Source of the DNA: an uncultured Fodinibius sp.
GTDB lineage: Bacteria > Bacteroidota > Rhodothermia > Balneolales > Balneolaceae
Assembly: GCA_913056235.1 (NCBI GenBank)
Contig: CAJXMW010000001.1
Coordinates: forward strand, 372,001 to 436,000
Direction of reading: 5' to 3'
DNA length: 64,000 bases
Position numbers and translations under genes: made by a program. Each line of letters starts with the position of its first letter. Position 1 is the stretch's first letter. Positions 25,866 through 60,330 of the stretch are shown piece after piece. The notes beneath the pieces are model-generated. The model saw only the letters and a program-made list of their open reading frames with translations. It was not told where the DNA came from and did not search any database.

Positions 25866-25939
25866 GCGCCCGTAGCTCAACTGGATAGAGCGTCTGACTT
25901 CGGATCAGAAGGTTGGGAGTTCGAATCTTCCCGGGCGTA
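25866..25939 (+). tRNA. tRNA-Arg (anticodon TCG)
   Basis: All four arms fold: acceptor stem GCGCCCG with CGGGCGT (first pair G.U), D arm GCTC/GAGC, anticodon stem TCTGA/TCAGA with loop CTTCGGA (anticodon TCG), T arm GGGAG-TTCGAAT-CTTCC with GTTCGA. No CCA is encoded. An integrase begins 181 bases downstream, so this gene is probably the attachment site. The 3' end is intact. Confidence 0.97.
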
Positions 25940-25956
25940 CTGCTTGAAACATTCCA

Positions 25957-35220: not shown

Positions 35221-36075
35221 GTGTCCAACTCTAAAAAAAAGCTAATAGAAAAAGCCTTAATAACCGCTTTAAGAGAAAGAAAAAAAATTAGCAACCACCC
35301 ATATAAGCCCTTCTGTTTGTACGACTTTATTGAAAAACAAGAGGTCGAAATTAAATTTGTAAATATTTCTAGTTTAGAAGGTATTTATAGCAAAGAGCCG
35401 GGGCCACTAATTCTATTAAGTTCGCTAAGACCACATGGGAGACAATATTATAATTGTGCGCATGAATATGGTCATCATGTATTTGAACATGGAATGGAAT
35501 TAGATGAGATTACAAATAATCATGATACTAGTAGCTACAATCCTAATGAATTTTTAGTAGATGCTTTTGCTGGTTTCTTGTTAATGCCGAAGTCAACTGT
35601 TAAAAGAGCTTTTAATATAAGGGACGTTGGGTTGAAGAAAGTTAAGCCTATAGATGTTTATCGGGTTGCATCAAATATTGGTGTAGGTTATAAGACACTG
35701 GCGTTCCATCTATACAGATCATTACGGATGATTGATAGATCAGTTTATCGGAAATTATCGAAAGTAAAGGTAAGTAGCATCAAAGAAGAGATATTGGGCC
35801 AACGGTTTCCTGGAGAATTAATTTTCGTGGATAAGCAATGGGAGGGTAGGCCGATTGATCTTCAAGTTAATGATTTGATTGCTGTTAGTGATGATTATGA
35901 GATTGAAGAAAGTTATCTAAAAAAAATAGACCAGATAGATAATAATTTGATTTTAAAAGGTCATAAAACTGGAATTGGTAGAATTAAACTTAATTCATCT
36001 AAAGAAGCTCACTTCGTAAGAGTCTCTCGGGATAAATACAATGGCTTTAATAAGTATAAGCACTTAGAGGAGTAG
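35221..36075 (+). CDS. ImmA/IrrE family metallopeptidase
   Basis: 284 aa, GTG start. Zn-protease motif HEYGHH at about residue 81, then a downstream conserved FLVDAFAGFLLMPKS, in which the acidic residue near 116 is the expected third ligand. This is the ImmA/IrrE arrangement. The last ~110 residues form an extra C-terminal domain. In ICEBs1, ImmA cleaves its partner repressor; the gene just before this one is such a repressor, so it probably acts as the induction switch of this cargo operon. Confidence 0.85.
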   Translation: MSNSKKKLIEKALITALRERKKISNHPYKPFCLYDFIEKQEVEIKFVNISSLEGIYSKEPGPLILLSSLRPHGRQYYNCAHEYGHHVFEHGMELDEITNNHDTSSYNPNEFLVDAFAGFLLMPKSTVKRAFNIRDVGLKKVKPIDVYRVASNIGVGYKTLAFHLYRSLRMIDRSVYRKLSKVKVSSIKEEILGQRFPGELIFVDKQWEGRPIDLQVNDLIAVSDDYEIEESYLKKIDQIDNNLILKGHKTGIGRIKLNSSKEAHFVRVSRDKYNGFNKYKHLEE

Positions 36076-36893: not shown

Positions 36894-37481
36894 ATGGATA
36901 ATAAATTTATCGTTTTTGAAGGTCCCGATAACATTGGAAAAACAACATTGTGCAACAAAGTTTCAGAAATATTAACCCAAAAAAATAAAACCTGCGAAGT
37001 ACACTCCTTTCCTGGTAACCAAAAAGGGACATTAGGAAAATTTGTACATAACTTTCATCACAACCATCAAAAATATGGGGTTACCAATATTCCAAATATA
37101 AGCTTACAGCTTTTTCATGTTGCTGCACATTTTGATACCATTGAAAAGAATATTAAACCCGCTATTGCAAATAATGAGTACCTCTTGTTAGATCGTTATT
37201 GGTGGTCAACCTACGTGTATGGAAAGGTTAACAATATTAAGCAATCTCTATTAGATAAACTTCTCGAGATAGAAAAACTAGCCTGGAAAGAACTTTTGCC
37301 AGATACTATAGTATTATTGACTAATGACTCACCTTTTGAAGGAGCAGCAAGTGAGGAATGGCTCCAACTTCGAAAAGAATATCTAAAAATAGCTGAAAAT
37401 AGTACAACCCCAGAGGTGATCCAGTTTAGTAATGTTGGTGATATTGAAGACAATGCACAAAAACTAATTAAGCTATTTTAA
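36894..37481 (+). CDS. Thymidylate-kinase-like nucleotide kinase
   Basis: 195 aa. P-loop FEGPDNIGKTTL at residues 8-19, DRYWWSTYVYGK near 100 (the DRY-type nucleotide-binding motif), and a lid-like region thereafter. This is the dTMP kinase fold (about 200 aa). It is smaller and more divergent than the cellular Tmk. In phage-like base-modification operons such kinases phosphorylate modified dNMPs; here it follows the TS-like gene, so a two-step route to an unusual dNTP is plausible. Confidence 0.75.
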   Translation: MDNKFIVFEGPDNIGKTTLCNKVSEILTQKNKTCEVHSFPGNQKGTLGKFVHNFHHNHQKYGVTNIPNISLQLFHVAAHFDTIEKNIKPAIANNEYLLLDRYWWSTYVYGKVNNIKQSLLDKLLEIEKLAWKELLPDTIVLLTNDSPFEGAASEEWLQLRKEYLKIAENSTTPEVIQFSNVGDIEDNAQKLIKLF

Positions 37482-37495
37482 ATCCAAAATTATTC

Positions 37496-38563
37496 ATGTC
37501 AGATCTTCGACAAAATATTTTAGAGTTAAAAACAGATGATCATGCAACTAACAAAGGATTTTATTCGGAATTATTATCAGAACTAGCACCTGCTAAACCT
37601 ACCGAAGTTTATAATACATATTGGTATTTTGCGGCAGAACGGCAGAATGTTTTTTTCAACAAAATAAAGAAAAAACACCCGCCTTGGTCTAAAGATAGGA
37701 TACTCAGAAAATATAAGTTTACAAATGCATATCGAGCAGCCGACCGAGTAAGCCAGTACTTAATTCAAAATGTTATTTATGATGATGATCATGATTTAGA
37801 GGATTTATTTTTCAGAATTATTCTATTCAAAATTTTTAATAAGATTGAAACATGGGAATTACTAAAATCCAAATTAGGTGAAATAAATTACAAAACATTT
37901 GATTTCTCGACTTATAATGAAGTTTTAACTGAGGCACAAGATTCTGGTAAAGCTATCTATTCAGGTGCTTATATAATGGCATCTGGCAAGAGTGCATTTG
38001 GATATTCAAAAAAACATAGGAATCACCTTGCTTTAGTTTCTAAAATGATGGAAGAGAACCTACCATTAAAAATTGCTACTGCTGAATCAATGCAGGAGGC
38101 TTTCACATTGATTAAATCTTATCCATCGATCGGTGATTTTTTAGCATATCAATATGTAACAGATATTAACTATAGTAAAATTACTGATTTTTCAGAGACT
38201 GAATTCGTTGTACCAGGACCTGGAGCAATCGATGGCATTCATAAATGTTTCTCTGATTTAGGTGGGCTAAGTGAAACAGAGATCATTAAAATGATGTATG
38301 AAAGGCAAAGTCTTGAATTTGAAAGATTGGGCATAAAGTTTAAAACCTTATGGGGTAGGCCCCTTAAGCTGATAGATTGTCAAAATCTATTTTGTGAAGT
38401 GGATAAATATTCACGAGTAGCTCACCCAAATATAAAAGGGAAGAGTGATAGGAAAAGAATCAAACAAAAATACTCACCTACAAATAGATCTTTACACTAT
38501 TGGTTCCCACCGAAATGGGGAATAAATGATAGAGTGCAAAAATTTTATGAGGAGTTGAGTTAA
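37496..38563 (+). CDS. HMU-DNA-kinase-helical / aGPT-pyrophosphorylase-like protein
   Basis: 355 aa. Residues 40-95 carry the block YWYFAAERQNVFF, PPWSKDRIL and KFTNAYRAADRVSQYL, which I recognise from the glycosylase-fold helical proteins called 5-hmdU DNA kinase helical domain, or alpha-glutamyl/putrescinyl thymine pyrophosphorylase. Later segments are TDINYSKITDFSE and PGPGAIDGIHKCF. The family is predicted to act on hypermodified thymine or uracil bases in DNA. It closes the rightward operon; its stop is 14 bases from the end of a facing NTP-pyrophosphohydrolase gene. Confidence 0.72.
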   Translation: MSDLRQNILELKTDDHATNKGFYSELLSELAPAKPTEVYNTYWYFAAERQNVFFNKIKKKHPPWSKDRILRKYKFTNAYRAADRVSQYLIQNVIYDDDHDLEDLFFRIILFKIFNKIETWELLKSKLGEINYKTFDFSTYNEVLTEAQDSGKAIYSGAYIMASGKSAFGYSKKHRNHLALVSKMMEENLPLKIATAESMQEAFTLIKSYPSIGDFLAYQYVTDINYSKITDFSETEFVVPGPGAIDGIHKCFSDLGGLSETEIIKMMYERQSLEFERLGIKFKTLWGRPLKLIDCQNLFCEVDKYSRVAHPNIKGKSDRKRIKQKYSPTNRSLHYWFPPKWGINDRVQKFYEELS

Positions 38564-38577
38564 TATGTAATAGCTTC

Positions 38578-39465
38578 TCAGTCTTTATCAATTATTTCAA
38601 TTTTGCGTTTAGTTAAGTCAACTGACATTTTGCCTCCTTTGTTTTTGCGTAAGTGTCTATACACTTCGTACGAATTTAGAATAGCATTTTCCCACTCTTT
38701 AAGTGACCTTTCACTGACTTCAAAGGGATCAACTAAAACCTCTATAGTTTTCAAAATTTCATAGTCAAGTGTTTCAACCCCTTGAAAGAAATTATTTTGT
38801 TCGGCAAATGGATAAATATAGGCAGATATTGCTTCCTCAATTATAGCCGCTCGAGCTCCGTCTTCAACTTCATCGATACTTGGAACACTTTTTCTTTTAA
38901 CGTTTAAAAGTTTTCTAAGGACTGGTGACCATCCTAAGTATGCCGCAAACCCATAGTGAAAAATATCGTGAAATCTATAACCATCATCTTCATAAGAGTT
39001 GTCTGTTATTGGATCCCCAACCTGGTCGCCATCTATGAATACAGTGACTAATGTATCATCACCTTTCGTGGTCTCTTCAAACTCCAACTCAAAATTTCTT
39101 GGCAGTTGCTCGCCTTCAGGGAAATCATCATCAAATAAATGATATTGAGCGTTGTCTATTGACTTCCACCGGTTTTGTGTTTTCTCAAGATTTTTTTGGG
39201 CAATCTTCTCCAAATCAAGATTTGCTTTGGTGGCAACATTAGATAAATACCACAAAACATCACCGAGTTCTTCTTCTAAATGGGGTTTAAACTCAACATA
39301 AGCATCTCCATCTCGCAATCTTTTCTTAAATTCAGAAATGGTTGACCCAATCTCTCCCACTAATCCTAAAATTGGGACCAAATAATTGATCAATTTATTT
39401 TCGTCTTCTCCTTTTGGGTTTTGATCGGTCTCTTTTGACTTTATTTGGTACTCTCGTAGATCCAT
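38578..39465 (-). CDS. MazG-type (all-alpha) nucleoside triphosphate pyrophosphohydrolase
   Basis: 295 aa. Residues 25-105 are an all-alpha NTP-PPase domain: LGLVGEIGSTISEF, the EEELGDVLWYLSNVA metal-binding helix (about 63-78), and LEKIAQKNLEKTQNRW. Residues about 150-220 hold a second helical block (HDIFHYGFAAYLGWSP, VEDGARAAIIEEAIS) that recurs in this long subfamily. Such enzymes remove unwanted (d)NTPs by cutting to NMP plus PPi. It is encoded opposite the end of the TS/TMPK/HMUDK-like operon and probably belongs to the same functional unit. Confidence 0.75.
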   Translation of the reverse strand: MDLREYQIKSKETDQNPKGEDENKLINYLVPILGLVGEIGSTISEFKKRLRDGDAYVEFKPHLEEELGDVLWYLSNVATKANLDLEKIAQKNLEKTQNRWKSIDNAQYHLFDDDFPEGEQLPRNFELEFEETTKGDDTLVTVFIDGDQVGDPITDNSYEDDGYRFHDIFHYGFAAYLGWSPVLRKLLNVKRKSVPSIDEVEDGARAAIIEEAISAYIYPFAEQNNFFQGVETLDYEILKTIEVLVDPFEVSERSLKEWENAILNSYEVYRHLRKNKGGKMSVDLTKRKIEIIDKD

Positions 39466-39560: not shown

Positions 39561-40163
39561 ATGCTACCTATAGTATACCAAACCTATGGTCAAGTTCGTG
39601 ATAAAATTATTGTTGTAATATCACGGCTGGGACATTTCGAGCCTCATGAACAAGTAGCGGTTCATTCCCTCATTGCCGACATGATGAAAGCGAGAGGCCA
39701 AGAAGAGCTCATTGAAGAATATGGATTAGCTCCCTTCCCCTAGAAAGTACTAACTATAGAACGGACCTTTTGCGAAAAAATAATGTCCCTGGTTCGCTTC
39801 TCTCATGCCGAAGATCCCTATGAGGATCACGGAAATAAGGTCCGGCATACCTACGACATTCACATGCTGCTAAAGCAACCGTCAATTCAAGACTTTGTTG
39901 AAAGCGATAAGCTGGATGAAATGCTGCTTCAAGTCGGAGCCGATGATATTGAAAGCTATGGCGACAAATACGATTGGCTGTACGATCATCCTGCCTCGGC
40001 CCTGCTTTTTGACAAACCCGAAGAAACCTGGGATAAGATCAAGCCTGTTTATAGCGGTACTTTTAAAGAGTTGGTAATTGGCGATCTTCCGGAAGCTGAT
40101 GCTGTACTCAGTGATATTAAGAGGGTCGCCGAGCGTCTTAAAGCTATCGATTGGGAGATTTAA
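39561..40163 (+). pseudogene. Remnant of an AbiEii-type nucleotidyltransferase toxin gene
   Basis: Two frames, 39561-39743 (60 aa) and 39783-40163 (126 aa), are in the same phase and separated by a single in-frame TAG at 39741. Read through the stop, they give EYGLAPFP-stop-KVLTIERTFCEKIMSLVRF, continuing to NKVRHTYDIHMLL and DLPEADAVLSDIKRV. This matches the C-terminal half of AbiEii/AbiGii toxins (RTF-x-EKI, RH-x-YDIH). The N-terminal nucleotidyltransferase half is missing and no AbiEi antitoxin is seen. It appears to be a dead gene; suppression of the amber codon is the only other reading. Confidence 0.72.
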
Positions 40164-40275
40164 ATCCCGGAAATTTAATTTCTTGGTATATTAAAACCCG
40201 AAAGTTTAATTCCATTCATTTGCCTCATCCCTTAAAACCTGATTATTAATTTTTATTGTGTAAAAGAAAAGTCAC

Positions 40276-41061
40276 TCAGTCATAATCTTCGCAAATCCAC
40301 AATAACGTAATCACAGAAGAATAACTATCTAAATAAATTGACTCTTCATTCAGCAATAACCCATCCTCTTCTAGTTTAGGGAACCAATCTATTGCATCAC
40401 AAACCTCTTTCTTTCTCTTTTCTCCATTGTCAAAAAATACTTTTGGCGTTGAATTAATTGGCAGAGCATCTTCCTCTAAATACCCCAGATAGAAATCATC
40501 TGTACTGGCAACCCATTGAATTTGACCCTCTTCAGAAAAAACTACATAACAAGGAATATCCCCATATTTCGTATATTGAATGCAGGCAGATGTAATACTA
40601 GAACCCAGTTCTTCAGAAAGGTTTTCCAAAAGGCTGACACTCAATTCTTTGCTACTTGTTATATCTCGAACTAAATACTTTGGCATCAATAACTCTGCTG
40701 CAAAGTTGTTCGCCTCGTATTCCCGGTAATCTGTTTGGCTTGATTTTTTATTCCATTTGTTGAAATCATACTCTTGACAAACGAAGTTCATCAGTTGTTT
40801 ATGTAACAGATGATGACCGAATTCGTGTGCTAATACGAACTTTTTCTTAGGTAGATAATCAATACAATCATCTATGGTAATCATAGATTTATCAGACGCT
40901 CTCGAAAATAGAATTCTTCCTTGCGCCCCATCTATCTGTTCATATTTGACAAAAGCATTTCTAACTGCACAAAGGTCTTCTATTTCTCCTAGATCTATGC
41001 TTCCATCGATAAAAAATTCTTTTCTTATTTGATTAGCGACTCTTGCAGCCCTATTCCTCAT
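40276..41061 (-). CDS. ImmA/IrrE family metallopeptidase, part of sigma-like operon
   Basis: 261 aa. Zn-binding HEFGHH near residue 79 and the EANNFAAELLMP stretch near 120 with the third ligand, as in ImmA/IrrE. The protein has a C-terminal half of unknown fold (QIQWVAST, FFDNGEKRKK). The start overlaps the end of the 41051 gene by 11 bases, and the whole set (41451, 41051, 40276) reads leftward from the control region shared with the ubiquitin-like cassette. Cleavage of a regulator such as the sigma-like protein is the natural hypothesis. Confidence 0.82.
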   Translation of the reverse strand: MRNRAARVANQIRKEFFIDGSIDLGEIEDLCAVRNAFVKYEQIDGAQGRILFSRASDKSMITIDDCIDYLPKKKFVLAHEFGHHLLHKQLMNFVCQEYDFNKWNKKSSQTDYREYEANNFAAELLMPKYLVRDITSSKELSVSLLENLSEELGSSITSACIQYTKYGDIPCYVVFSEEGQIQWVASTDDFYLGYLEEDALPINSTPKVFFDNGEKRKKEVCDAIDWFPKLEEDGLLLNEESIYLDSYSSVITLLWICEDYD

Positions 41062-41437
41062 CTTCTTTTTCTAGCTTTTCAATAAGTTGTAAAAGCTGTT
41101 CATCATTGAACATTTTTAATGCATCTTCATCGCTTATATCATCTAATTTGGAGAATTGAAAGGCAAACTTAGACTCAGGTGACTCCATATTTGAAAGAAT
41201 AGATTTTAGAGAAATGTCCTGGCTTTGTGATTTAAGCAGTTCTTGTGCTCTTTTTAGGAGACTTTTCTTTTCTCGTGCTTTTTTAAGTTTATTCTCAGCT
41301 AAAGCTTTTTTAAATGTATTTACTCCCTCCTCCTCAAGCTTATCCAAATCATAGCCTTTACTTTTCAAGTATTCATCTCTAGCCGTTTTATCTTCAAACT
41401 CACCTAACCACGATAGTATTTTGGCTAATTTCTTCAT
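41051..41437 (-). CDS. Charged helical protein coupled to the ImmA-like gene
   Basis: 128 aa, very Lys/Glu-rich with nearly continuous helix potential (KKALAENKLKKAREKKSLLKR) and no membrane segment. I do not recognise a family. It lies between the sigma-like and ImmA-like genes (overlap 11 bases with the latter), so it could be an inhibitor of the sigma-like protein or a cleavage target of the peptidase. Neither is shown by the sequence. Confidence 0.55.
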   Translation of the reverse strand: MKKLAKILSWLGEFEDKTARDEYLKSKGYDLDKLEEEGVNTFKKALAENKLKKAREKKSLLKRAQELLKSQSQDISLKSILSNMESPESKFAFQFSKLDDISDEDALKMFNDEQLLQLIEKLEKEDEE

Positions 41438-41450
41438 ATTAGTTCTACCA

Positions 41451-42023
41451 TCAATTTTTCAGATTATCGAGAAATTTTTCACAAGCTCTTCGAAGCCTTT
41501 TTTTAGCATTATATACCTTTTGTCGTGAGTCATAGTTTAATTTATCCGCTATTTCATCTGCTGAATAACCTTCTTCTTCGAAAAAAAGCAATTCTGCAAG
41601 TTCTTCATCAATTTCTACTAGGTGATCAAACAATTGGTCCCTTAAATCTTCTCCATGTACCTCTTCAAGTACACTCACCTCACTTTCCAACAAATCGAAA
41701 AAACTATCAGCAGATTGATCATTACTTGCATGATGAGTGGTTGACGTACTTTTTAAATTAAAGTGATTGCTGATTTCACTGGAAATACAACCTTTTAGAA
41801 AATTCTTGAAACTCGGGTTTGTATCAGGATCCCAAGATCTATGATCATCACTATTCTCATCTAATACCTTTCTTATTGCCCTGCCAACAAAATCTTTGGC
41901 ACTCATTCCTTGTGTGGTAATAAAATTAAGTCTGTAGTCAGCAAAACTGATTAAATCTTTATACAGATCATCAAGTTCGTCATCCGTCAAATCATCAATG
42001 TATTCAAAAGCTCTTGAACTCAT
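41451..42023 (-). CDS. Sigma-70-like DNA-binding protein
   Basis: 190 aa. A region-2-like helix set (LYKDLISFADYRLNFI, FVGRAIRKVL, SFKNFLKGCISSEISNHF) is followed by an acidic linker and a region-4-type HTH (EEEGYSADEIADKLNYDSR, VYNAKKRLRRACEKF). This matches the layout of ECF sigma factors or sigma-like HTH proteins. It is the first gene of the leftward operon starting beside the concentric inverted repeat at 42045-42107, so it may direct the promoters of both divergent operons. Confidence 0.72.
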   Translation of the reverse strand: MSSRAFEYIDDLTDDELDDLYKDLISFADYRLNFITTQGMSAKDFVGRAIRKVLDENSDDHRSWDPDTNPSFKNFLKGCISSEISNHFNLKSTSTTHHASNDQSADSFFDLLESEVSVLEEVHGEDLRDQLFDHLVEIDEELAELLFFEEEGYSADEIADKLNYDSRQKVYNAKKRLRRACEKFLDNLKN

Positions 42024-42044
42024 AAATCATAACCCTCTATAGAC

Positions 42045-42107
42045 TATAGCTGTTTTCTCATATTAATTTTCCACGGGATGGAAAATCCGGTCAACTTTTC
42101 AGCTATA
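42045..42107. promoter_or_regulatory. Concentric inverted repeats between divergent operons
   Basis: Inner dyad ATTTTCCA-CGGGA-TGGAAAAT at 42066-42086 and outer dyad TATAGCTG (42045-42052) with CAGCTATA (42100-42107). Both are centred on base 42076. They lie between the leftward sigma-like operon (starts 42023) and the rightward DUF2188/Ubl operon (starts 42149). It probably controls both. Confidence 0.7.
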
Positions 42108-42148
42108 TATAATAGAAGGCTAACAAAAACCAAAATATCACTACAGCT

Positions 42149-42394
42149 ATGAGTAACAATGATAGATCAGTTTATCGAAGAAGCGATGGTAAATGGGCAA
42201 ACAAAAAAGATTCTGCTTCAAAAGCATCCTCCGTACATGATACGCAAAAAGATGCTGCTAAAGCGGCGAAGAAGAATTTAAATAACCAAGGTGGTGGTGA
42301 GCTCAAAATAATGGGAAGAGACGGTAAAATTCGAAGTAAGGATACCATCTCTCCCGGTAACGACCCATTTCCGCCACGTGACAAGGAACATTAA
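42149..42394 (+). CDS. DUF2188-like small protein
   Basis: 81 aa. SVYRRSDGKWANKKDSASKAS near the start and the following TQKDAAKAAKKNLNNQGGGELKIMGRDGKI block give the DUF2188 pattern (strand, Lys-rich helix, strand). The protein is basic, with no signal peptide. It is the first rightward gene from the shared control region and precedes the ubiquitin-like gene by 36 bases. DUF2188 proteins have no assigned function; association with conjugation cassettes is suggested only by position. Confidence 0.7.
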   Translation: MSNNDRSVYRRSDGKWANKKDSASKASSVHDTQKDAAKAAKKNLNNQGGGELKIMGRDGKIRSKDTISPGNDPFPPRDKEH

Positions 42395-42430
42395 CAAACA
42401 GTCAAATTTCAAACCAATAATCTCAATATT

Positions 42431-42715
42431 ATGAGTAATTCAGATAAAGGAAAAGGTAAGGAAGATGCCCCAGGTCAGAATAAAGAGTTTACAATATATG
42501 TAAACGCAACCCCAGAAACCTGGACCGGAAAAGAAATATCATTTAGTGAAGTCACTAAGTTAGCTTTCGAAAATCCTCCATACGGAGAATACACAGAGTA
42601 CCAAGTAGTATACTCAGAAGCCCGGGGAAATAAAGAAGGGACTTTAGCTGAAGGACAAACCATAAAGATAAAAGAAGGTACAGAGTTTGATGTCAGCGCA
42701 ACTGATAGATCATAA
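42431..42715 (+). CDS. Bacterial ubiquitin-like protein (multiubiquitin-domain type, single domain)
   Basis: 94 aa. A disordered charged start (residues 1-17) is followed by one beta-grasp domain: KEFTIYVNATPETWTGKEIS, the helix FSEVTKLAFENP, YTEYQVVYSEARGN, LAEGQTIKIKEGTEFDVSATDRS. This is the consensus of the multiubiquitin domain (PF14452), which usually occurs in several copies; here only one is present. The C-terminus ends TDRS, with no Gly-Gly. It overlaps the E1-like gene by 29 bases, so coupling is tight. It is the expected conjugated modifier of this cassette. Confidence 0.82.
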   Translation: MSNSDKGKGKEDAPGQNKEFTIYVNATPETWTGKEISFSEVTKLAFENPPYGEYTEYQVVYSEARGNKEGTLAEGQTIKIKEGTEFDVSATDRS

Positions 42716-43874
42716 TGAAGATCTCAAAAAGTTAGTAGAGAGTGGGTTAGTTCTAGAAATCAAAAATAACTTCCTCCTGATTCACAGGATACCATATTTA
42801 AACTCTATTAGTGAAATTAAATATGGGACATTGGTTTCCAAGCTACAACTGTCAGGTAACAAAACGAGAAAGAACCCTGAACACACTGTTTATTGGTCCG
42901 GCGAAATGCCATGCAGGTTAGATGGTACCAAATTTAATTCGATCCTAAACAATAGTAATACTCAACAAATTGCTGATAGCTTTGAGGTAAACTTTAGATT
43001 TTCCAGCAAGCCCAAACCCAATGGGTACTCGGATTATCATCATAAGATGACTACCTATATCAAGATGATTACAGCGCCAGCCAAAGCAAAAGATAAATCA
43101 GTGACTGAAAAAGGAAAGGCGCAAATAACCCAAAGCAAAGATGAATATGTATTTAACTATTTAAATACTAATTCTAGCAAGCCTGAATTGAGTACTTTAG
43201 AAGATGAGCTCAAAGAACAAAAAATTGCAATCATTGGTCTGGGGGGCACTGGGTCATATATTTTAGATTTGGTTGCCAAGGTGCCAGTGAAAGAAATTCA
43301 TATCTATGATGGAGACTGGTTTTACAATAATAATGCATTCCGAGCTCCGGGCGCACCCTCAATAGATGACCTCACTGTACCCAAGAAAAAAGTAGTATAT
43401 CTTCAGAACATATACTCCAAGATGCATAAAGGGATTAAGGCTCATCCTTTATATCTAAAATCAGAAAACGTTACGACGTTAGATAAGTTTGATTTTGTCT
43501 TCCTATCTCTAGACTCAGCTGACATTAAAAAGGATATAATCAAGTTTTTAGAAAAAGAAGGTATCCCATTTATTGATGTCGGGATTGGGGTAAATAACAA
43601 TCAGGGTGCACTTACTGGTTTAGTAAGGACAACAACAGGAACACCTTCAAAAACAGATCATATCTGGGATAAAAATTATATTCCTTTTACCAAAGATCCG
43701 GATAATGATTATGATTCTAACATTCAAATAGCTGAGCTAAATTCACTCAATGCGACCCTTGCTGTTATAAAATGGAAAAAGCTGTTTGGTTTTTACCATG
43801 ACCGAAATAATGAGCATACTAGTTTTTATCGGATTAATTCAAACAAAATGTTGAATGAAGAAACTGAATCATAG
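42687..43874 (+). CDS. E1-like ThiF adenylyltransferase with fused N-terminal domain
   Basis: 395 aa (394 from the second Met). Residues about 180-345 are a ThiF/E1-type Rossmann domain with IIGLGGTGSYILDLVAK, YDGDWFYNNNAFRAPGAP and FDFVFLSLDSADIK, enough for ATP binding and adenylation of a ubiquitin-like C-terminus. The first ~165 residues are a separate domain (HTVYWSGEMPCRLDG, FSSKPKPNGYSDYHHKM) of the kind described as DUF6791. The single Cys of the whole protein is Cys76 in this N-terminal domain. A role as fused E2-like conjugation site is inferred. It overlaps both neighbours. Confidence 0.85.
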   Translation: MMSAQLIDHNEDLKKLVESGLVLEIKNNFLLIHRIPYLNSISEIKYGTLVSKLQLSGNKTRKNPEHTVYWSGEMPCRLDGTKFNSILNNSNTQQIADSFEVNFRFSSKPKPNGYSDYHHKMTTYIKMITAPAKAKDKSVTEKGKAQITQSKDEYVFNYLNTNSSKPELSTLEDELKEQKIAIIGLGGTGSYILDLVAKVPVKEIHIYDGDWFYNNNAFRAPGAPSIDDLTVPKKKVVYLQNIYSKMHKGIKAHPLYLKSENVTTLDKFDFVFLSLDSADIKKDIIKFLEKEGIPFIDVGIGVNNNQGALTGLVRTTTGTPSKTDHIWDKNYIPFTKDPDNDYDSNIQIAELNSLNATLAVIKWKKLFGFYHDRNNEHTSFYRINSNKMLNEETES

Positions 43875-44277
43875 ATTTGTAGAATACATACCAAAAGATC
43901 TTGAAGAAGGCGTTCTTTATATCTCGATAAGATTTGGCACAGCAGTTCATAAATGTGCTTGTGGTTGTGGCAATAAAACTGTTACTCCACTTTCACCAAC
44001 AGATTGGGAATTAAAATATAATGGAGAATCTGTATCCCTAAGCCCATCAATTGGCAATTGGAGCTTTCCATGCCAATCTCATTACTGGATTATTAATGAT
44101 GAGATCAGATGGGCAGATAAATGGACTAAAGAAAAAATTCAGGCAAATAGAGTAAGACAGCAGATAAATAAAAAACGCTACTTCAACTCTTTAAAAACAA
44201 ATTCTAAAGAGCCAGAATCTAAGGAGCAAAGCTTATGGAATAAGTTTAAACATTGGATTTCAAACCTCATGAAATAA
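43855..44277 (+). CDS. DUF6527-type zinc-binding protein of the ubiquitin-like cassette
   Basis: 140 aa, starting 20 bases before the end of the E1-like gene. Residues about 30-80 show HKCACGCGNKT, TPLSPTDWEL, SLSPSIGNW, and FPCQSHYWI. The Cys at 34, 36, 38 and 73 with His 76 form a likely metal site and are characteristic of DUF6527. The C-terminus is Lys-rich and ends in a short amphipathic helix. In ubiquitin-like cassettes of bacteria a DUF6527 gene follows the E1-like gene; its reaction is unproven (protease or structural Zn protein are both possible). Confidence 0.78.
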   Translation: MKKLNHRFVEYIPKDLEEGVLYISIRFGTAVHKCACGCGNKTVTPLSPTDWELKYNGESVSLSPSIGNWSFPCQSHYWIINDEIRWADKWTKEKIQANRVRQQINKKRYFNSLKTNSKEPESKEQSLWNKFKHWISNLMK

Positions 44278-44413
44278 AACTGCTCTTTATTTTTCCTATT
44301 CCTTTTATCTCATTCAATCCCAATCTGTCCCATCCGTTAACAGCTCATTGCACCCTATTCCAGCCCATCCCGGGGTATTTCCCTTGATTTAAAATAGTGT
44401 TACGTTGACATCG

Positions 44414-44439
44414 GTGATTGTGTAAAATGTTACAATCAC
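44414..44439 (+). promoter_or_regulatory. Perfect dyad upstream of virion module
   Basis: GTGATTGT at 44414-44421 and ACAATCAC at 44432-44439, arms perfect, 10-base centre. A TTGACA-like hexamer lies just before it (44405-44410), so the dyad overlaps a probable promoter of the first virion-module gene (ATG 44464). Within the right arm lies ATGTTACA, also present upstream of the integrase. The rest of 44278-44413 is AT-rich and unassigned. Confidence 0.65.
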
Positions 44440-44463: not shown

Positions 44464-45459
44464 ATGCCTGAACCTTTGTCAAACCACATAGATACCCAGC
44501 AGCGCGACTACGCCACCACCCTCCAGGAACTGCGAGAGGGCAAGCCTATTTTCGGCAGCATTACCGGCCGGACCGATGATCACATCGACGTCGAAAAGGA
44601 TATTCCATTCAACATTCGTTCTCCTTTTAACGTAGCCAAGGCTATGTGTCGCCTGGAGCCCGGGATCTATACGCTGCATACCGGGGATGACCATGATATT
44701 GAAATCAATTTCCGGATTGACGATCCCAGCAAGCAGGCCGAAGCCGCCACTGACTTCGTCGGGCAACCAACAGGCTCCAGCCAATCAAACGACGAAGGTT
44801 ATTACAGCAATCGCATTCTGCGACTGGAAGGGGAGCTCCATGACGCCGACCGCAAGATTCGCCAGCAGGTTGACGAGATCATGACCCTCAAACGGGAGCT
44901 GGCCGAAGATAAGACCACCACCCTGCTCACCCACCAGAAAGAGCTGGCCGACCTGAAAGAATCCCACCGTAACGAAATCGACCGCCTCAAAGAAATTCAG
45001 CGTAGCAACCTTAAAGCCCTCGAAAAGGAGCTCGGCGAACTGGAAAAAGTAAAATTCCGCATGGAAATGGAACAGCGAGCGGGCGGCAGAGACGCCGGAA
45101 GCCGCATGCTTGATATGCTGGAAGAAAATGCGCCCCTGTTTTTTAGTGTCATCTCAGGGCTCTTTGCCCAACGGGGTGGCCAAGGCCAACTAACCCCCGA
45201 GCAAGCCGAGGCTTTTAAAGCCGCAGTAGCCCAAAAGGTACAACCACAGAACAATTCCGACCTACCCCAACAAGATGCCCACCTCAACGAAGAAGCCGAA
45301 CAACCCAAAGGTGCCGGGGAGGAGACTCCTCGGCACCTTCCCGCCGACGAGGGTGATCTTCCAGAGTCCTTGTTAAACAAAACCGATGGACTAACGCTGA
45401 ACGGTAGCTTTATTTCGCCCGATGCAGGTGGCCATCCCGAATCAACCATGACCATATAA
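44464..45459 (+). CDS. Coiled-coil protein, first gene of virion module
   Basis: 331 aa. A globular N-terminal part (residues 1-95: PFNIRSPFNVAKAM, PGIYTLHTGDDHDIEI) is followed by a long coiled coil (about 115-210, LEGELHDADRKIRQQ, LKALEKELGELEKVK), a short hydrophobic helix region (ENAPLFFSVISGLFA) and a Gln/Glu/Pro-rich tail. I do not recognise the family. A scaffold or assembly role is possible from position and shape. It begins the rightward, visibly more GC-rich block and follows the dyad. Confidence 0.6.
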   Translation: MPEPLSNHIDTQQRDYATTLQELREGKPIFGSITGRTDDHIDVEKDIPFNIRSPFNVAKAMCRLEPGIYTLHTGDDHDIEINFRIDDPSKQAEAATDFVGQPTGSSQSNDEGYYSNRILRLEGELHDADRKIRQQVDEIMTLKRELAEDKTTTLLTHQKELADLKESHRNEIDRLKEIQRSNLKALEKELGELEKVKFRMEMEQRAGGRDAGSRMLDMLEENAPLFFSVISGLFAQRGGQGQLTPEQAEAFKAAVAQKVQPQNNSDLPQQDAHLNEEAEQPKGAGEETPRHLPADEGDLPESLLNKTDGLTLNGSFISPDAGGHPESTMTI

Positions 45460-45480
45460 CCGACTTTGAATAACCCCGCC

Positions 45481-45885
45481 ATGAATCCCGATCATATTAC
45501 GCTGCTCAAAATGGCGCTCGAATACCTGGGCGACCGGCCCGAATCTTACGCTCGTTATGCCAAACGCATAAAATCGCAGTTGGCACTGCTGCAGTCCTGC
45601 GGGCGCCCCATTACGATCAACGACTGGACACGCATGGCCAAATTACTTTCCGAAGAAGCGATAAGCAGGGATATAGGAGCCGAACGCATTGCAAAAACGA
45701 TATATCCCCTTGTGGATGGATTAGGGCAACACGCCAGGACGCTTGCCTATATCCCTGCCCCTTTCGCTTGCCAACAGCTGCTGCGACTTACCCGCATCAA
45801 CGCGAGCACCCAAATTAGACAACTGCTGACCCAGGTCATCATCCAGCTACAAAAACTGGTCACATCCAACGGATCTAAAACTTAG
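45481..45885 (+). CDS. Small helical protein, unknown
   Basis: 134 aa from ATG 45481 (MNPDHITLLKM); a TTG five codons upstream is less likely. The sequence is almost wholly helical (KMALEYLGDRPESYARYAKRIK, RMAKLLSEEAISRD) with no membrane segment or signal. No family is recognised. It lies 21 bases after the previous gene and 9 bases before the next, within the one-direction block. Confidence 0.6.
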   Translation: MNPDHITLLKMALEYLGDRPESYARYAKRIKSQLALLQSCGRPITINDWTRMAKLLSEEAISRDIGAERIAKTIYPLVDGLGQHARTLAYIPAPFACQQLLRLTRINASTQIRQLLTQVIIQLQKLVTSNGSKT

Positions 45886-45894
45886 ACAATTCTC

Positions 45895-46122
45895 ATGCCG
45901 ACCATTACTCAACAACCCGTTACCAATCTGCGAGACAACATCTACGATACCCTGGATTGCCCCGGCATAACGACCATCTCACGCTCGGGGCAATTTACGG
46001 GCGTGCTGATCAGCCTGGGTGACCTCGACCCGAAATTAGCCAAACGCCTGCAAGATGTCACAACGCGCAACCCCGAGCACGGGCTACAGCTACTGCTCGA
46101 CTATATCACCTACCGCTCTTGA
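45895..46122 (+). CDS. Small protein, unknown
   Basis: 75 aa. ISRSGQFTGVLISLGDLDP in the middle and a helical C-terminus (GLQLLLDYITYR). The stop codon (TGA at 46120-46122) overlaps the TTG start of the next gene. No family is recognised. Its tight packing in the block supports its being real. Confidence 0.55.
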   Translation: MPTITQQPVTNLRDNIYDTLDCPGITTISRSGQFTGVLISLGDLDPKLAKRLQDVTTRNPEHGLQLLLDYITYRS

Positions 46123-47150
46123 GCAGCCACTATCCCCATATAATTCCTTCCCGACAAGCAGTCACTACTGACGATTCAGTGACGAGCAAAAAGGCGGCAG
46201 CACCCTCTCCCCAAAGAGGTGTTGCCGACCCTATTATTACCCACCGGCGACCATACCCTGGTATTGAAAGCGTCTTGGGACTAGCTTCCCAGCTGGTCAC
46301 CAAGTACACTGGGCGCGAGGACATCCGCGAGCTAGCGCTAAAAATCACTCGTAGGGTTCCCAGGAATATAAGCACAGGCCTGCCTGACCTACGAAATATA
46401 GATCAGATTGCAGGTGCCATTTACAAGTGGATGACGAGCAACATCAACTACGTCCGCGACCCCTGGAATATCGAACGCATTCAGTCCCCGGATGTCACCT
46501 TACGGCAAAAAGCCGGAGACTGCGACGACCACGCAATCCTGTCGGCGGCCCTGCTACAAAGCTTAGGGATCCAAACAGGTTTTCGCATTGTCAGCCGAAC
46601 GGGGCGAACCTACGACCATATTTATACCGTCCTTCGCTCCCCACAAGGATGGAAATCCTTTGATACTACCGTAGCTAAATATCCCGGATTTACTTTTGAC
46701 GAACGACTGATTAAAAAGTCCAAACACCTTCCCAACCGGATGCCGGAAGGATTAGGTATTGACCCGATTACCCTGACGGCTGCGGCCACGATGGCTCTGC
46801 AAACCGGCGTTACCATGAAGAGCATGTTTTCCAAATGGTTTGGCGCGAAGGATAAAGACGAGCGTATCCAACGCGGGCAATGGCGAGACTATCTGATGGC
46901 CCGAGGGGTCCGCTCGGATGTCATTTCGTTTTCTCAAAAGGATAACGCGATCCTCAGGAAGTACGCTCAGGTTATCCAAGAGTACGGCCAACCGGCCGTT
47001 GATCATCTAAACCGGTTCGGTAGTCTGGACAATAGTTTTTACGCGAATCAACAGAAAATCCAACACAAGAAATGGCTCCTCTACGGCGGACTCTCGGCCG
47101 GGCTTCTCACGCTGGGCGGGATGAGCTATTGGGCCCTAAACCACTCCTGA
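46119..47150 (+). CDS. Transglutaminase-like protein with C-terminal membrane anchor
   Basis: 343 aa. The start is a TTG overlapping the previous stop; no nearby ATG fits, and no strong ribosome-binding site is seen, so translation may be coupled. Residues about 85-205 form a transglutaminase-type core with Cys135 in KAGDCDDHAI, a His in TYDHIYTVL and an Asp in FDTTV. The C-terminus is one membrane span (WLLYGGLSAGLLTLGGMSYWAL). It may be a peptidoglycan or protein-processing enzyme of the virion membrane. It is one of nine anchored proteins in this block. Confidence 0.75.
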   Translation: MSSHYPHIIPSRQAVTTDDSVTSKKAAAPSPQRGVADPIITHRRPYPGIESVLGLASQLVTKYTGREDIRELALKITRRVPRNISTGLPDLRNIDQIAGAIYKWMTSNINYVRDPWNIERIQSPDVTLRQKAGDCDDHAILSAALLQSLGIQTGFRIVSRTGRTYDHIYTVLRSPQGWKSFDTTVAKYPGFTFDERLIKKSKHLPNRMPEGLGIDPITLTAAATMALQTGVTMKSMFSKWFGAKDKDERIQRGQWRDYLMARGVRSDVISFSQKDNAILRKYAQVIQEYGQPAVDHLNRFGSLDNSFYANQQKIQHKKWLLYGGLSAGLLTLGGMSYWALNHS

Positions 47151-47154
47151 CCTT

Positions 47155-47565
47155 ATGAGTAGTGCTTACTTACAACCTATAGCGATAACAAACGACGATG
47201 ATCAGTTGATCATACCTAATAGCCTACGTAGTGGCTTAGACGGCTGGGAAGAAGATGATCCCTGCCGGTATGCCAACCAAAGCTGTAAGGGAAAAATGTT
47301 CGGCAAGCTCAAAAGCTGTCGGCGCAAGCGCGAAAAATCGCAGGCCCTCTGCAAGGCCCACGAGCGCAAGCTGGCTGAAAAAAAGAAAATAGAACAGGAG
47401 AAACAGCAGCTCATGACGGCGCTTCAGCATAATGTTACTGATACTGCTGCCAAGCAAGAGACGGCCAGCACCGCCATGATTGCCGGGGCCGCTGTCGGAG
47501 GGGTAGCCATCCTGGGAGCTGTGGTCTTCCTGATTGCCAAAAAGAAAAAATCTAAACCGCAATAA
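47155..47565 (+). CDS. Tail-anchored small membrane protein
   Basis: 136 aa. A soluble part with a Cys pair region (DPCRYANQSCKGKMFGKLKSCRRKR) and a basic coiled coil precedes a single C-terminal hydrophobic helix (AMIAGAAVGGVAILGAVVFLIA) and a basic tail (KKKKSKPQ). No signal peptide is present, so it is inserted by its C-terminus. This organisation is typical of small virion membrane proteins. No family is recognised. Confidence 0.65.
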   Translation: MSSAYLQPIAITNDDDQLIIPNSLRSGLDGWEEDDPCRYANQSCKGKMFGKLKSCRRKREKSQALCKAHERKLAEKKKIEQEKQQLMTALQHNVTDTAAKQETASTAMIAGAAVGGVAILGAVVFLIAKKKKSKPQ

Positions 47566-47580
47566 CCTATCCCTACTCCT

Positions 47581-47946
47581 ATGAACAGCAGCTCTTTCGA
47601 TCAAATCGATTTTTTGCAAACCACTCGTCCATTCAGTTATAGCCTTACCAATAGCACACTCCCACCCGTGCAATCCACCACCACGAAGAAAACCAAGTTT
47701 GGCAGCATTCTGAATGACTTGTCAAGCTTTTTGACTACGGCAGCTGATACGGCAGTAACCGTGGACGGGGTTATCAATCGCGGAAAAAACAACCCGTCAG
47801 GCAATGGCCTGACCCCCCAGCAACAAATGGCGCTCCTGCAAGCCCAAAAATCGAGCGGCCCCAATATGACAAGCATGTTGCTTATTGGCGGTGTGATCGC
47901 CGTCGGTGGGGGTATTATGTATTCGATGTTAAAAAAGAAGGCCTAA
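47581..47946 (+). CDS. Tail-anchored small membrane protein
   Basis: 121 aa with a Ser/Thr-rich soluble part (residues 1-95) and a C-terminal span (MLLIGGVIAVGGGIMYSML) ending KKKA. The Gln-rich part QQQMALLQAQK precedes the span. No family is recognised. It is separated from its neighbours by only 15 and 1 bases, so it is co-transcribed with them. Confidence 0.62.
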   Translation: MNSSSFDQIDFLQTTRPFSYSLTNSTLPPVQSTTTKKTKFGSILNDLSSFLTTAADTAVTVDGVINRGKNNPSGNGLTPQQQMALLQAQKSSGPNMTSMLLIGGVIAVGGGIMYSMLKKKA

Positions 47947-47947
47947 T

Positions 47948-48265
47948 ATGATAGAAGCTATTCAGACAACAAGTCATCCTGTAGGTATTTCCCACTACAC
48001 AGACGGGCATATTCCTAGCGGGCGCTATCCAAATCCCTCTCAATCGGAGGAAAAAGTTTACCTGCAACCGGCCATCGAGCTGCAAGATGTGGCCAAGGGA
48101 GCCGTGGTGAAACCTTCCGACAAAAAATCTCTCTGCCAGCAAATGGCTGAAGAACACCCAGGCGAAGCCCTCCGGGATTGGCTGATCCGCAATAAAAAGA
48201 CCCTGGGATGGATCGCCGGGGGATACCTCGTATTTCGAATCATAACCAGACGAAAACAGCAATGA
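47948..48265 (+). CDS. Tail-anchored small membrane protein
   Basis: 105 aa; ATG 47948. A soluble part with a helical middle (DKKSLCQQMAEEHPGEAL) is followed by a C-terminal hydrophobic helix (LGWIAGGYLVFRII) and a basic end (TRRKQQ). The stop codon overlaps the next start by four bases (ATGA). No family is recognised. Confidence 0.62.
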   Translation: MIEAIQTTSHPVGISHYTDGHIPSGRYPNPSQSEEKVYLQPAIELQDVAKGAVVKPSDKKSLCQQMAEEHPGEALRDWLIRNKKTLGWIAGGYLVFRIITRRKQQ

Positions 48266-48948
48266 CCCAGACCCAATCTGCATATAGCGACAACGGGCTA
48301 GGGGCCACCCCTATATCCGGCAATATTATAAGCTCGGAGGCGGGAGAACTTCGCATTATCGGTCGGCATCCCGAGCGCGGGCTGCCCAAATCCGGTGTTC
48401 CTTTCTCTATCGATATCGAGATTGACCGCTACCGCAACTTCTGGAACTCGTTTCTGCTGATCTCCTGTCCGGACGCGGTTGTGGCAGCCCTGGATCCCCA
48501 AAGCCGAAAGGTACTGGCTATATCCCGCATCCTCACAAGCATGTGGGATGGGTGTCGGGGGCAAACGCGGCTGGTCTTCGGGCGCTCCTTCAGGCCCGAC
48601 CGCAATCATCCGGTTATATTTGAACTGCACCCCGGTAATGTAACGGAGGCTACGATATCGGGGGCCAAACCCTTGGCAACGTCGAAGGTGATGACGCTGG
48701 ATCTGGATATCGAGGAAGGCCAACAAAGCGGGGTGTATGCTCCGCCGACTGAGCCGTGGTACGAAATTAGCTTGCCGAACCCGCAAAGCGCATTCAGTGG
48801 CGTCAACAGCACGCTCACCAAAGCATTATGGCTGGTGGGCATCGGCGCCGGAGCGTACTTTCTCGGCCCTCTGATGCCCGGCCTGCGAGACAGTCTGAAA
48901 CAGATCACCCAGCCAGGCAACAACGACGAGGATCAAAAGAATGCGTGA
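48262..48948 (+). CDS. Beta-rich protein with C-terminal membrane helix
   Basis: 228 aa from ATG 48262 (overlap ATGA with the previous gene); the longer frame from 48208 is discarded because it overlaps the previous gene. Residues 20-170 alternate strands (GELRIIGRHPERG, FSIDIEIDRYRN, VIFELHPGNV) and look like a jelly-roll or Ig-like fold, but I cannot assign it. One hydrophobic helix near 190-210 (LWLVGIGAGAYFLGPLM) is followed by a short polar tail. It may be a virion membrane-associated protein. Confidence 0.6.
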   Translation: MTQTQSAYSDNGLGATPISGNIISSEAGELRIIGRHPERGLPKSGVPFSIDIEIDRYRNFWNSFLLISCPDAVVAALDPQSRKVLAISRILTSMWDGCRGQTRLVFGRSFRPDRNHPVIFELHPGNVTEATISGAKPLATSKVMTLDLDIEEGQQSGVYAPPTEPWYEISLPNPQSAFSGVNSTLTKALWLVGIGAGAYFLGPLMPGLRDSLKQITQPGNNDEDQKNA

Positions 48949-49345
48949 GCTAATCGAAGGCCTTGATTATCAGATTGTCGATGACGGGATGGGCGACCTC
49001 AACAGTTATCTCCGCCAGACAAGTCGAAACGCATTCAAAAAAGCCATTGGCCTTGCCGATCGCGCTCTGAGTGGTCGGAAAGGACAAGCCGCTACCACGG
49101 CCCTTGTCCTGGCTGATCTGACCAAAGATAAGCGGTCCTTCCAACAGGTTTTCAACCAAAACGCCGATGTCATTAACCGTTATTTCGAACACGTAGATCT
49201 GCAGGCGGTAAGCGATATGATCGGAATCCAAAATGCAGTCACTAAAAGTAAACCTGTATCTATAATCAAACAGACCGGTATTTTTTCCGTTGGTATCGCC
49301 CTTGGCATTGCCGGACTCACCTTATATAACCGAAAACGATCTTAA
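48941..49345 (+). CDS. Helical protein with C-terminal membrane anchor
   Basis: 134 aa; overlaps the previous gene by 8 bases. A helical soluble part (FKKAIGLADRALSGRKGQAATTALV) ends in a membrane span (VGIALGIAGLTLY) and basic tail (NRKRS). Same architecture as its neighbours. No family is recognised. Confidence 0.6.
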   Translation: MRELIEGLDYQIVDDGMGDLNSYLRQTSRNAFKKAIGLADRALSGRKGQAATTALVLADLTKDKRSFQQVFNQNADVINRYFEHVDLQAVSDMIGIQNAVTKSKPVSIIKQTGIFSVGIALGIAGLTLYNRKRS

Positions 49346-49348
49346 TCA

Positions 49349-49672
49349 ATGACACTCAACATAGGCGACAAAGGTCCCCAGGTCATGCACCTGCAGTCAG
49401 CTTTAAAGGCTATTGAAATTGAGCTCCCCAAATATGGCGTCGATGGCATCTTTGGCCCCGAAACCCAGGCGGCCGTCCGACAGGCACAACAAAAACTGGG
49501 ATTGCCTGCCAGCGGCGTAGCTGACCAGCCTCTATTAAACAGGCTCGGCATTAACCGGCAAGCTTTACAAGTACCGCTAAGCACTCCCACAGCAAAACCA
49601 GCTCTCCTTGCCATAGGGGCCATCGCCATTATTGGAATTGGAATCGCAATTAAACAAACCAAACGGAAGTAA
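49349..49672 (+). CDS. Peptidoglycan-binding domain protein with C-terminal anchor
   Basis: 107 aa. Residues 5-60 are a PG_binding_1 domain (GDKGPQVMHLQSALKAIEIELPKYGVDGIFG in two parts, ETQAAVRQAQQKLGLPASG), which holds on to murein. A Pro/Ala linker leads to a membrane helix (LLAIGAIAIIGIGIAI) and a basic tail (KQTKRK). In a virion this could attach an entry enzyme or spike to the cell wall during infection. It starts 3 bases after the previous gene. Confidence 0.82.
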   Translation: MTLNIGDKGPQVMHLQSALKAIEIELPKYGVDGIFGPETQAAVRQAQQKLGLPASGVADQPLLNRLGINRQALQVPLSTPTAKPALLAIGAIAIIGIGIAIKQTKRK

Positions 49673-49673
49673 T

Positions 49674-50933
49674 ATGGAATCTATGACTGCCCAGCAGCTT
49701 GCTAAACTTAATATCAAAGGCATTAAAATTGCCCCACCCTATGGAAGACTTCTGGGCGAACCCGAGAAAAATGCCGTGATTTTTATTTGGGGCGAAAAAG
49801 GAGCCGGTAAATCTACCATGAGTCTGGGACTAGCAGACGCGCTGGCCGCCCACGGACGCATCGAGTACATTCCCGCCGAGGAGCACTTTGGTAAAACCCT
49901 GGTCGATCGCGTCAAGCGCCTGGGAGCTACCCACCGGAACCTGAATTTTACCAAATGGAAATCGATTCAGTCCCTCAAAGAAGTTCTGCTTAAGAATCAG
50001 TCCTTCGCCTGTATCCTAGATTCCATTTCGGTGATTGATGCCAACGCGAAAGAAACAGTGGAGTTGGCCCAGTGGTGCCGCGAAAACGGGATTATGTTCG
50101 TCATGGTCTCGCATGCCACCAAAGACGGCCAGTACAAAGGCAACACCAGTATCGCCCACGAGTGTGATATCGAGATCAAGGTCACCAAAGAAGGCGGGGC
50201 CGAAACCGAGAAAAACCGATACCGAGAACTTACGTCCATTGCCGTACCATTTACAGCGGATGATCGACAGGTACCCACCAACACATCAGTAGAAGATAAC
50301 TCCGACGACAACCGAGAAAATCCTGTGGATACGCCTTTTAAAATTACGCTAAAGGAGCTCGACAAACTTCACAAAATCCGATCCTGGAAACGCATCAACT
50401 CCATGTTTGGAAGCAAGATGCCGTGTTACGCCCCGAAGCATTCCGGGGAATCTGAAAATGCCCACCTGTCCATCCGGTACACGGCCGATTACCCGAAAAA
50501 GCGGTATATCATGGACTTACTTCTGGACGGGCACTTGGAGTACCAAGCCTGCACAGAAGGCAAAGGAGGTGGGCTAAAAGCGTGCTGGAAAAAGTTAGTC
50601 AACAAGTATGGAGATTTGGAGATCCGAATTTACAAGCAGGACCACGCCAAAGTCGTGCTGGGCGCCAAAGAGTACAAGCGCCAGGAACGTGCGCTGGGCA
50701 AACAGGACATGAAATCCACTCCGGCCAGCTCACCAGCCCCAAAGACCAAGAAGAAACCAGTGACTGAGCCAAAGCCCGCTTCTACCAAGCAGCAAGAAAA
50801 AACTTCGTCGAACAAACAACCAACGACGAAGGATATTTCATCTGGCCAAAAACCAGAGCAGCAGATAGACCTCAAAGCCGCCAAACAAAGCCAGGCTAAA
50901 CTGGATGCTTTCCTAACCAAAGTTTTAGGCTAA
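49674..50933 (+). CDS. RecA-superfamily ATPase (RadA-like core)
   Basis: 419 aa from ATG 49674, 1 base after the previous stop. Residues 30-200 hold the RecA/RadA-like core: Walker A WGEKGAGKSTM near 40, the EEHFG helix, a Walker B-like ACILDSISVID near 115, and the FVMVSHATKDGQYKGNTSIAHECD segment near 145, the K-x-G-x-x-G-N signature of RadA-like enzymes. The C-terminal 130 residues are Lys/Pro/Thr-rich and disordered. In this setting it could be a recombination or DNA-packaging ATPase; it does not look like an FtsK/HerA-type packaging motor. Confidence 0.75.
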   Translation: MESMTAQQLAKLNIKGIKIAPPYGRLLGEPEKNAVIFIWGEKGAGKSTMSLGLADALAAHGRIEYIPAEEHFGKTLVDRVKRLGATHRNLNFTKWKSIQSLKEVLLKNQSFACILDSISVIDANAKETVELAQWCRENGIMFVMVSHATKDGQYKGNTSIAHECDIEIKVTKEGGAETEKNRYRELTSIAVPFTADDRQVPTNTSVEDNSDDNRENPVDTPFKITLKELDKLHKIRSWKRINSMFGSKMPCYAPKHSGESENAHLSIRYTADYPKKRYIMDLLLDGHLEYQACTEGKGGGLKACWKKLVNKYGDLEIRIYKQDHAKVVLGAKEYKRQERALGKQDMKSTPASSPAPKTKKKPVTEPKPASTKQQEKTSSNKQPTTKDISSGQKPEQQIDLKAAKQSQAKLDAFLTKVLG

Positions 50934-50938
50934 CCCCC

Positions 50939-58204: not shown

Positions 58205-58224
58205 CCCCCATAAACCACCATCCT

Positions 58225-58746: not shown

Positions 58747-58853
58747 CTACGAGTTTCTCTACTCATAGCTCACGCTGAACAGGGGACTGCTTACGGGAAT
58801 AAGCTAACGGCCTAATGGCCCTACCTAAAAACCCCTATAAACATTTACGACCT

Positions 58854-59474: not shown

Positions 59475-59546
59475 CCCCACCCAACCGGCAGCGGCTCCTG
59501 GCCGTTGCCGGCTTTATTAATTGCTCAAACGCTTGCCTACATCATT

Positions 59547-60326: not shown

Positions 60327-60330
60327 CCCC

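Follow-up and report, generated by a model that had tools for sequence, protein, structure and literature searches.

We found that the window, that is, the whole 64,000-nucleotide stretch of DNA analyzed here, carries an operon of the 6e/Bub class of bacterial ubiquitin-like (Ubl) operons, a known class represented here by a JAB-less single-Ubl subtype, together with a divergent trio of genes encoding a sigma-like protein, a 128-aa helical protein and a CapP-like M78 metallopeptidase. Drawing on gene content, sequence conservation, predicted folds and the recurrence of both modules, the best explanation as a whole, to which we assign somewhat better than an even chance, is a JAB-less Bub/6e conjugation system with the trio as its controller. 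The narrower claim, that the trio controls here a JAB-less E2–E1 fusion with a Ubl ending in Thr-x-x-Ser, not in Gly, falls just short of an even chance.

The operon lies on the forward strand and opens with a gene for an 81-aa DUF2188 protein (42149..42394; PF09954, 8.6e-19; PADLOC defense candidate PDC-S16, 8.5e-22), followed by genes for a single-domain, BubA-like Ubl of 94 aa with the C-terminus FDVSATDRS (42431..42715; PF14452, 1.4e-14, one domain), a protein joining DUF6791 (residues 1–145; PF20590, 6.7e-51) to a ThiF E1 (residues 166–394; PF00899, 4.1e-14) at 42690..43874, and a 140-aa DUF6527 protein, the probable BubE, with a C-x-C-x-C ... PSxG ... CxSH pattern (43855..44277; PF20137, 3.3e-25). 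All four families clear their Pfam cut-offs comfortably, and DUF2188, the single Multi_ubiq Ubl, DUF6791-ThiF and DUF6527 are confirmed as one operon. An earlier note on this DNA had recognized a ubiquitin-like cassette here; the matches to PF14452, PF00899 and PF20137 confirm it, its ORFs are as given there and the genes are real. For the E1 gene, placed at 42687 in that note, the ATG at 42690 is more likely to be the start than the TTG at 42687, because the NCBIfam model PRK06153 begins at residue 2 of the TTG-initiated ORF and homologues have the same start. The Ubl, E1 and DUF6527 genes had also been described as overlapping, which holds for Ubl/E1 (26 nt) and E1/DUF6527 (20 nt); a 36-nt gap separates DUF2188 and Ubl. 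The 26-nt Ubl/E1 overlap is present in 30/30 aligned operons. The cassette is not a chance assembly, since it shows 92% nucleotide identity to that of Fodinibius roseus and the Ubl–E1 pair recurs with this overlap. The earlier description of the cassette as complete calls for qualification: Pfam detected no JAB peptidase among the four proteins, DUF6791 stands in its place, and E1 and the putative E2-like part form one polypeptide. The operon does not fit Bil (type 6d), in which E1, E2 and JAB are separate (BilA–BilD); the window E1 gave no PADLOC BilD match. The predicted co-occurrence of cassette genes was borne out, with DUF6527 adjoining 33 of the 34 DUF6791-E1 genes; the sole case in which it went undetected is a single-Ubl DUF6791 operon of Fictibacillus (L015).

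The Ubl matches the multi-ubiquitin protein of PDB entry 9cd2 (2.6e-5), and its true end is ...DVSATDRS, in agreement with the TDRS terminus reported earlier. Its homologues share the tail motif F-[ND]-V-x-x-T-x-x-S, and no terminal Gly occurs in 28 distinct sequences. A comparison of the distinct overlaps gives a terminal Ser in 28/28, Thr at position −4 in 25/28 (Ser in 2/28) and Val at position −7 in 26/28. Conservation of the tail as a by-product of the gene overlap was ruled out; the tail is thus selected as Ubl sequence, because E1 residues 7–9, read off the same bases, vary while the Ser is invariant. Two features that had been singled out as unusual proved to be ordinary for the family. 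The absence of a Gly-Gly end is family-wide, and one to three Ubl repeats are on record (PMC1779556), with further single-Ubl operons found in Bacillales, Fictibacillus and Adhaeribacter, among others, as well as in Rhodobacterales and Croceicoccus. In the Citrobacter Bub system, the homologue residue corresponding to the end of crystallized BubA 155–229 (residue 229) is Gly, whereas the DUF6791 type ends in Ser; the JAB and DUF6791 types therefore seem to differ in their Ubl C-termini. The lack of a C-terminal Gly is evidence against the best explanation.

Structure prediction gives DUF6791, a domain without an assigned function, an E2-like fold. When the domain was modeled by itself (22 sequences, mean pLDDT 87.9), its best match was Citrobacter BubB (Z 9.1 over 120 residues, rmsd 3.6); the remaining listed structural matches were E2 or UEV proteins throughout, with Z up to 5.8 (VIA-align). 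The assignment rests on the model, because the Foldseek E-values for DUF6791 were not significant and a profile comparison with five Prok-E2_E proteins was not significant either (hhalign probability 2.6). His65 and Cys75 of DUF6791, a His-x9-Cys arrangement, are invariant in 21 sequences; the sole exception among 22 is a divergent relative (L071) with Phe in place of Cys75. E2 enzymes carry a His/Cys motif with this spacing. Cys75 is the only cysteine of the window DUF6791-E1 protein, and the ThiF domain has no conserved cysteine, which leads us to infer that Ubl is handed from the adenylation site to Cys75 of the same polypeptide. With DUF6791 modeled as E2-like, this Bub/6e subtype would be a JAB-less E2–E1 fusion.

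In the E1 domain, the nucleotide-site residues GxGGTG, Asp207, Asp209 and Arg218 are invariant. Structurally the domain is closest to Citrobacter BubCD (Z 24.3, 219 residues), and MccB is among its best structural and sequence matches. The latter match, together with the 28 distinct Gly-less tails and their invariant C-terminal Ser, would suit a different chemistry, in which the Ubl stays unconjugated and the E1 adenylates its Ser-ended tail, either releasing a nucleotide or making a modified peptide in the way that MccB acts on MccA. We regard this as very unlikely: BubCD is the better E1 match, an E2-like domain with a conserved Cys is fused to the E1, and the tail could be trimmed by DUF6527. 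In the DUF6527 family, residues H32, C34, C36, C38, S65, C73, S75 and H76 are invariant, and no PDB sequence match was obtained, profile search included; the protein may be a protease or bind zinc. It is probably BubE, because a BubCD-like gene of Citrobacter braakii precedes DUF6527. Among the papers covered by our literature search, which did not extend to the Bub-defining ones (Ye 2026, Gong 2025), none named DUF6791, DUF6527 or BubCD.

Operon type 6e was described from sequence by Iyer, Burroughs and Aravind in 2006 as comprising one to three Ubl repeats, an E1 with either a JAB or an alternative, uncharacterized N-terminal domain, and a Cys/His metal-binding protein (PMC1779556). Bub operons, of which 544 have been counted (PMC13373217, citing Gong 2025 and Ye 2026), probably represent the same class, given the matches of the BubCD fold, the Ubl and DUF6527. 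The window operon has a Multi_ubiq Ubl, an adjacent Bub-type E1, DUF6527 downstream and an N-terminal domain replacing JAB. Type 6e has the same features: a Ubl count within one to three repeats, a distinct domain replacing JAB at the N-terminus of the E1, and a protein with a Cys/His metal site. The window operon differs in that this N-terminal domain, uncharacterized there, is modeled here as E2-like with a His-x9-Cys motif, and in having a single Ubl and DUF2188 as first gene. Citrobacter Bub (structures 9ea4, 9eae and 9eav) likewise shares the Multi_ubiq Ubl, the E1 fold and the downstream DUF6527, but there JAB is fused to E1 and the E2-like BubB is separate, whereas the window protein has no JAB and carries the modeled E2-like domain on the E1; by our own reading of the C. 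braakii homologue, no Cys occupies the matching BubB site. In C. braakii, a Ubl–E2 fusion (Multi_ubiq and Prok-E2_E) stands before the BubCD homologue and DUF6527 after it, and Asp104, the residue mutated in the BubCD structures, falls within the homologue's JAMM motif H91-S-H93 ... D104. Cassettes on alphaproteobacterial plasmids (L083 from Sulfitobacter, L086, L087 and L088), all four from Rhodobacterales and with DUF2188 as first gene, show the same DUF2188–single Ubl–ThiF–DUF6527 order and, as checked in L083, the same 26-nt Ubl/E1 overlap, but have an HTH (CapH-type) and M78 pair as controller in place of the trio. The new points are the reading of DUF6791 as E2-like and a sigma-like/128-aa/CapP controller common to several immune systems, either of which Ye 2026 or Gong 2025 may already cover.

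The window genome is Fodinibius-like, and the nearest of the loci compared is that of F. roseus (E1 identity 96%), with which it has the block 39574..44420 in common (92% nucleotide identity over 40191–44420 and 86% over 39574–40180). A tRNA-Arg gene (25866–25940) is followed by a tyrosine integrase gene at 26121, and the GC content is 0.33–0.40 over 33–44 kb, versus about 0.5 beyond 44.4 kb. To the right of the F. roseus block lies the same element gene start (64% identity, first 86 residues of the 44464 protein), which runs directly into the ends of window genes 62651 and 63316; the F. roseus element therefore appears to be a related one that carries an internal deletion and has its cassette in the corresponding position. 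The same element gene thus adjoins the cassette in two species, and an integrated element carries the cassette as cargo, as had been proposed. No copy of the tRNA-Arg end was found as an attachment site within the window; near copies with one mismatch each lie outside it at G000:C1:458140 and 473739. E1 relatives were sought in phage records and viral contigs, and none was found.

Several further features of the element were observed. An AbiEii toxin gene remnant lies at 39561–40163, where F. roseus keeps a longer AbiE-like pair (L002 3732–5486). Upstream of the cassette, 36894–39465 encodes a thymidylate/deoxynucleoside kinase, HMUDK_hel (5-hmdU DNA kinase helical domain, 3e-114) and MazG/MazG_C together, which suggests a role of the element in modified-nucleotide metabolism or DNA hypermodification. 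A second M78/ImmA-like peptidase is encoded at 35221–36075 (8.7e-10). The GC-rich block 44464–63768 encodes an ATPase (phrog_6891, 1e-28), a transglycosylase-like protein and a 2421-aa protein, along with numerous small proteins whose C-termini combine a hydrophobic stretch with a basic tail, and it resembles a membrane-containing or tailless virus-like element.

The trio is encoded on the reverse strand. It consists of a 190-aa sigma70/ECF-like protein (41451..42023), the 128-aa helical protein (41051..41437), a candidate CapP substrate or anti-sigma factor, and the 261-aa CapP-like M78 metallopeptidase (40276..41061; PF06114, 2.2e-13), whose HExxH motif is intact (HEFGH in the alignment) and whose best PADLOC model is capP (1.3e-53). 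The sigma-like protein covers nearly the full TIGR02937 model, region 2 included (residues 20–183 on model positions 10–163/165; 5.3e-8), at 32.7 bits versus the curated cut-off of 42.9; several relatives score lower on this model and some have no match. Iterative HMMs link the sigma-like proteins at E < 1e-3 within Bacteroidota/Rhodothermota but give only weak support for homology of those from Alphaproteobacteria. For the 128-aa protein, Pfam and PADLOC gave no match and NCBIfam none above its cut-off, and it shows no anti-sigma or HTH signature. A profile of this family alone, used as an independent test, matched in 14 of 394 genomes of the phylum, 11 of which were not seeds. The trio is present in all 11 new loci in the same order, with E-values of 4e-56 to 9e-6 for the sigma-like protein and 2e-70 to 9e-42 for CapP.

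Most of these 11 new trios face Bil, CBASS, 6A-MBL, Bub or DUF2188. Across the loci, the partners are Bil (L105; BilD 2.1e-134), a JAB-type Bub (L106), CBASS cyclases accompanied by a phospholipase effector (L107) or by HORMA and TRIP13 (L108), an MBL-fold-like protein next to an E2-E1-JAB fusion (L110, L112), which from its gene content is of the 6A-MBL type, DUF2188 (L104) and Tn7-like tnsA/tnsB (L109); no partner system was assigned in L032, L111 and L113. At the Tn7-like locus (G186:C2, 3633–8232), the trio is divergent from tnsA and tnsB and might also control transposition. The compact trio also precedes Ubl operons of other types (in Pontibacter, Spirosoma linguale, Paracoccus and Celeribacter) and DUF2188 combined with different partner genes (in G046, in Sagittula and on a Rhodobacteraceae plasmid). 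In G046 (L031, C5), a 301-aa protein with no Pfam match, a possible effector, is encoded between the trio and DUF2188 near an integrase-like gene (8562–9467). The trio thus appears to be a portable controller facing many different immune systems, and the divergent sigma-like/ImmA-like operon, flagged earlier as unusual, is truly notable, with a range wider than the earlier note supposed. Alternatively to a role in defense, the cassette could be a stress or housekeeping modification system and a passive passenger of the element, given that phage protection by Bub operons is undemonstrated (PMC13373217) and that UmuCD-type genes adjoin two relatives. However, the same controller faces the proven immune types CBASS and Bil, and the distribution is patchy (6/296 genomes of the phylum); we consider a non-defensive role unlikely.

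Controllers beside this operon subtype vary and include WYL proteins (CapW type), pairs of CapK and CapS-like proteins, HTH and M78 pairs, and the sigma-like/mid/M78 trio. In several proteobacterial relatives, a sigma-like gene is accompanied by a gene for a ~190-aa protein and by one whose product joins an M78 domain to UvrD helicase and PD-(D/E)XK nuclease domains; this fusion lies upstream of cassette relatives in L004 (3743–7198, where the domains were checked), L065 and L066. The described CapH+CapP pair (Lau 2022, cited in PMC13373217) shares with the trio a CapP-type M78 protease and divergence from the immune operon, but CapH is a short HTH protein of about 107 aa, whereas a sigma-like protein and a helical protein of 128–145 aa are found here; neither Pfam nor PADLOC detected an adjacent short HTH. 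The M78 relatives that accompany CBASS in Thauera and Proteus, in contrast, have an ordinary short HTH partner.

The two operons are separated by a 125-bp control region (42024..42148) containing a perfect 21-bp inverted repeat, ATTTTCCA-CGGGA-TGGAAAAT (42066–42086), which is also present in F. roseus (L002). Its 8-bp arms were matched in 10/500 shuffles, and a 26-bp perfect inverted repeat in the L034 control region had no equal in 500 shuffles. No significant promoter motif common to the control regions of the window and of L031 emerged (55/1000 shuffles equaled the best local alignment). The inverted repeats make a repressor role of the sigma-like protein conceivable. For the same Bub operon, that protein would then be a DNA-binding repressor, a split CapH, and CapP cleavage of it or of its 128-aa partner would derepress transcription. 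Perfect inverted repeats between divergent operons suit a dimeric DNA-binding protein, identical cassettes elsewhere are under an HTH (CapH-type) and M78 pair, and the controllers in PMC13373217 are repressor-based. Against this, the window protein aligns with nearly the whole sigma70-ECF model, region 2 among it, and the usual action of sigma domains is to recruit polymerase. On balance, we consider repression rather unlikely, if a serious candidate.

Based on these findings, we propose a plausible scheme for the Bub/6e system with the trio as controller. The ThiF E1 would activate the single Ubl at its C-terminus. DUF6791, as the fused E2-like domain, would then receive the Ubl, probably on its sole cysteine, Cys75, and pass it to targets, while the BubE-like DUF6527 would trim the Ubl tail, or reverse or direct conjugation. 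CapP, which cleaves CapH, is activated by single-stranded DNA (PMC13373217), and PprI, a related M78 protease, senses single-stranded DNA directly (PMC10904395). By inference, DNA damage or phage infection would lead the M78 protease to cut the 128-aa protein, and this cut may release the sigma-like protein, which would then drive transcription of the divergent immune operon. The trio may thus be a damage-induced switch, possibly an undescribed one.

Should the trio prove to be a controller, DNA damage would have a further route to immunity in Bacteroidota, Rhodothermota and Alphaproteobacteria. The 128-aa protein would then serve as a cheap search handle for new defense operons, since all 11 new matches lie in a trio and several of these have a known immune system as neighbor. 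Should DUF6791 be a cysteine-based E2 fused to an E1 that acts on a Gly-less Ubl, the operon would encode a compact pathway with a chemistry unlike that of the solved Citrobacter Bub.
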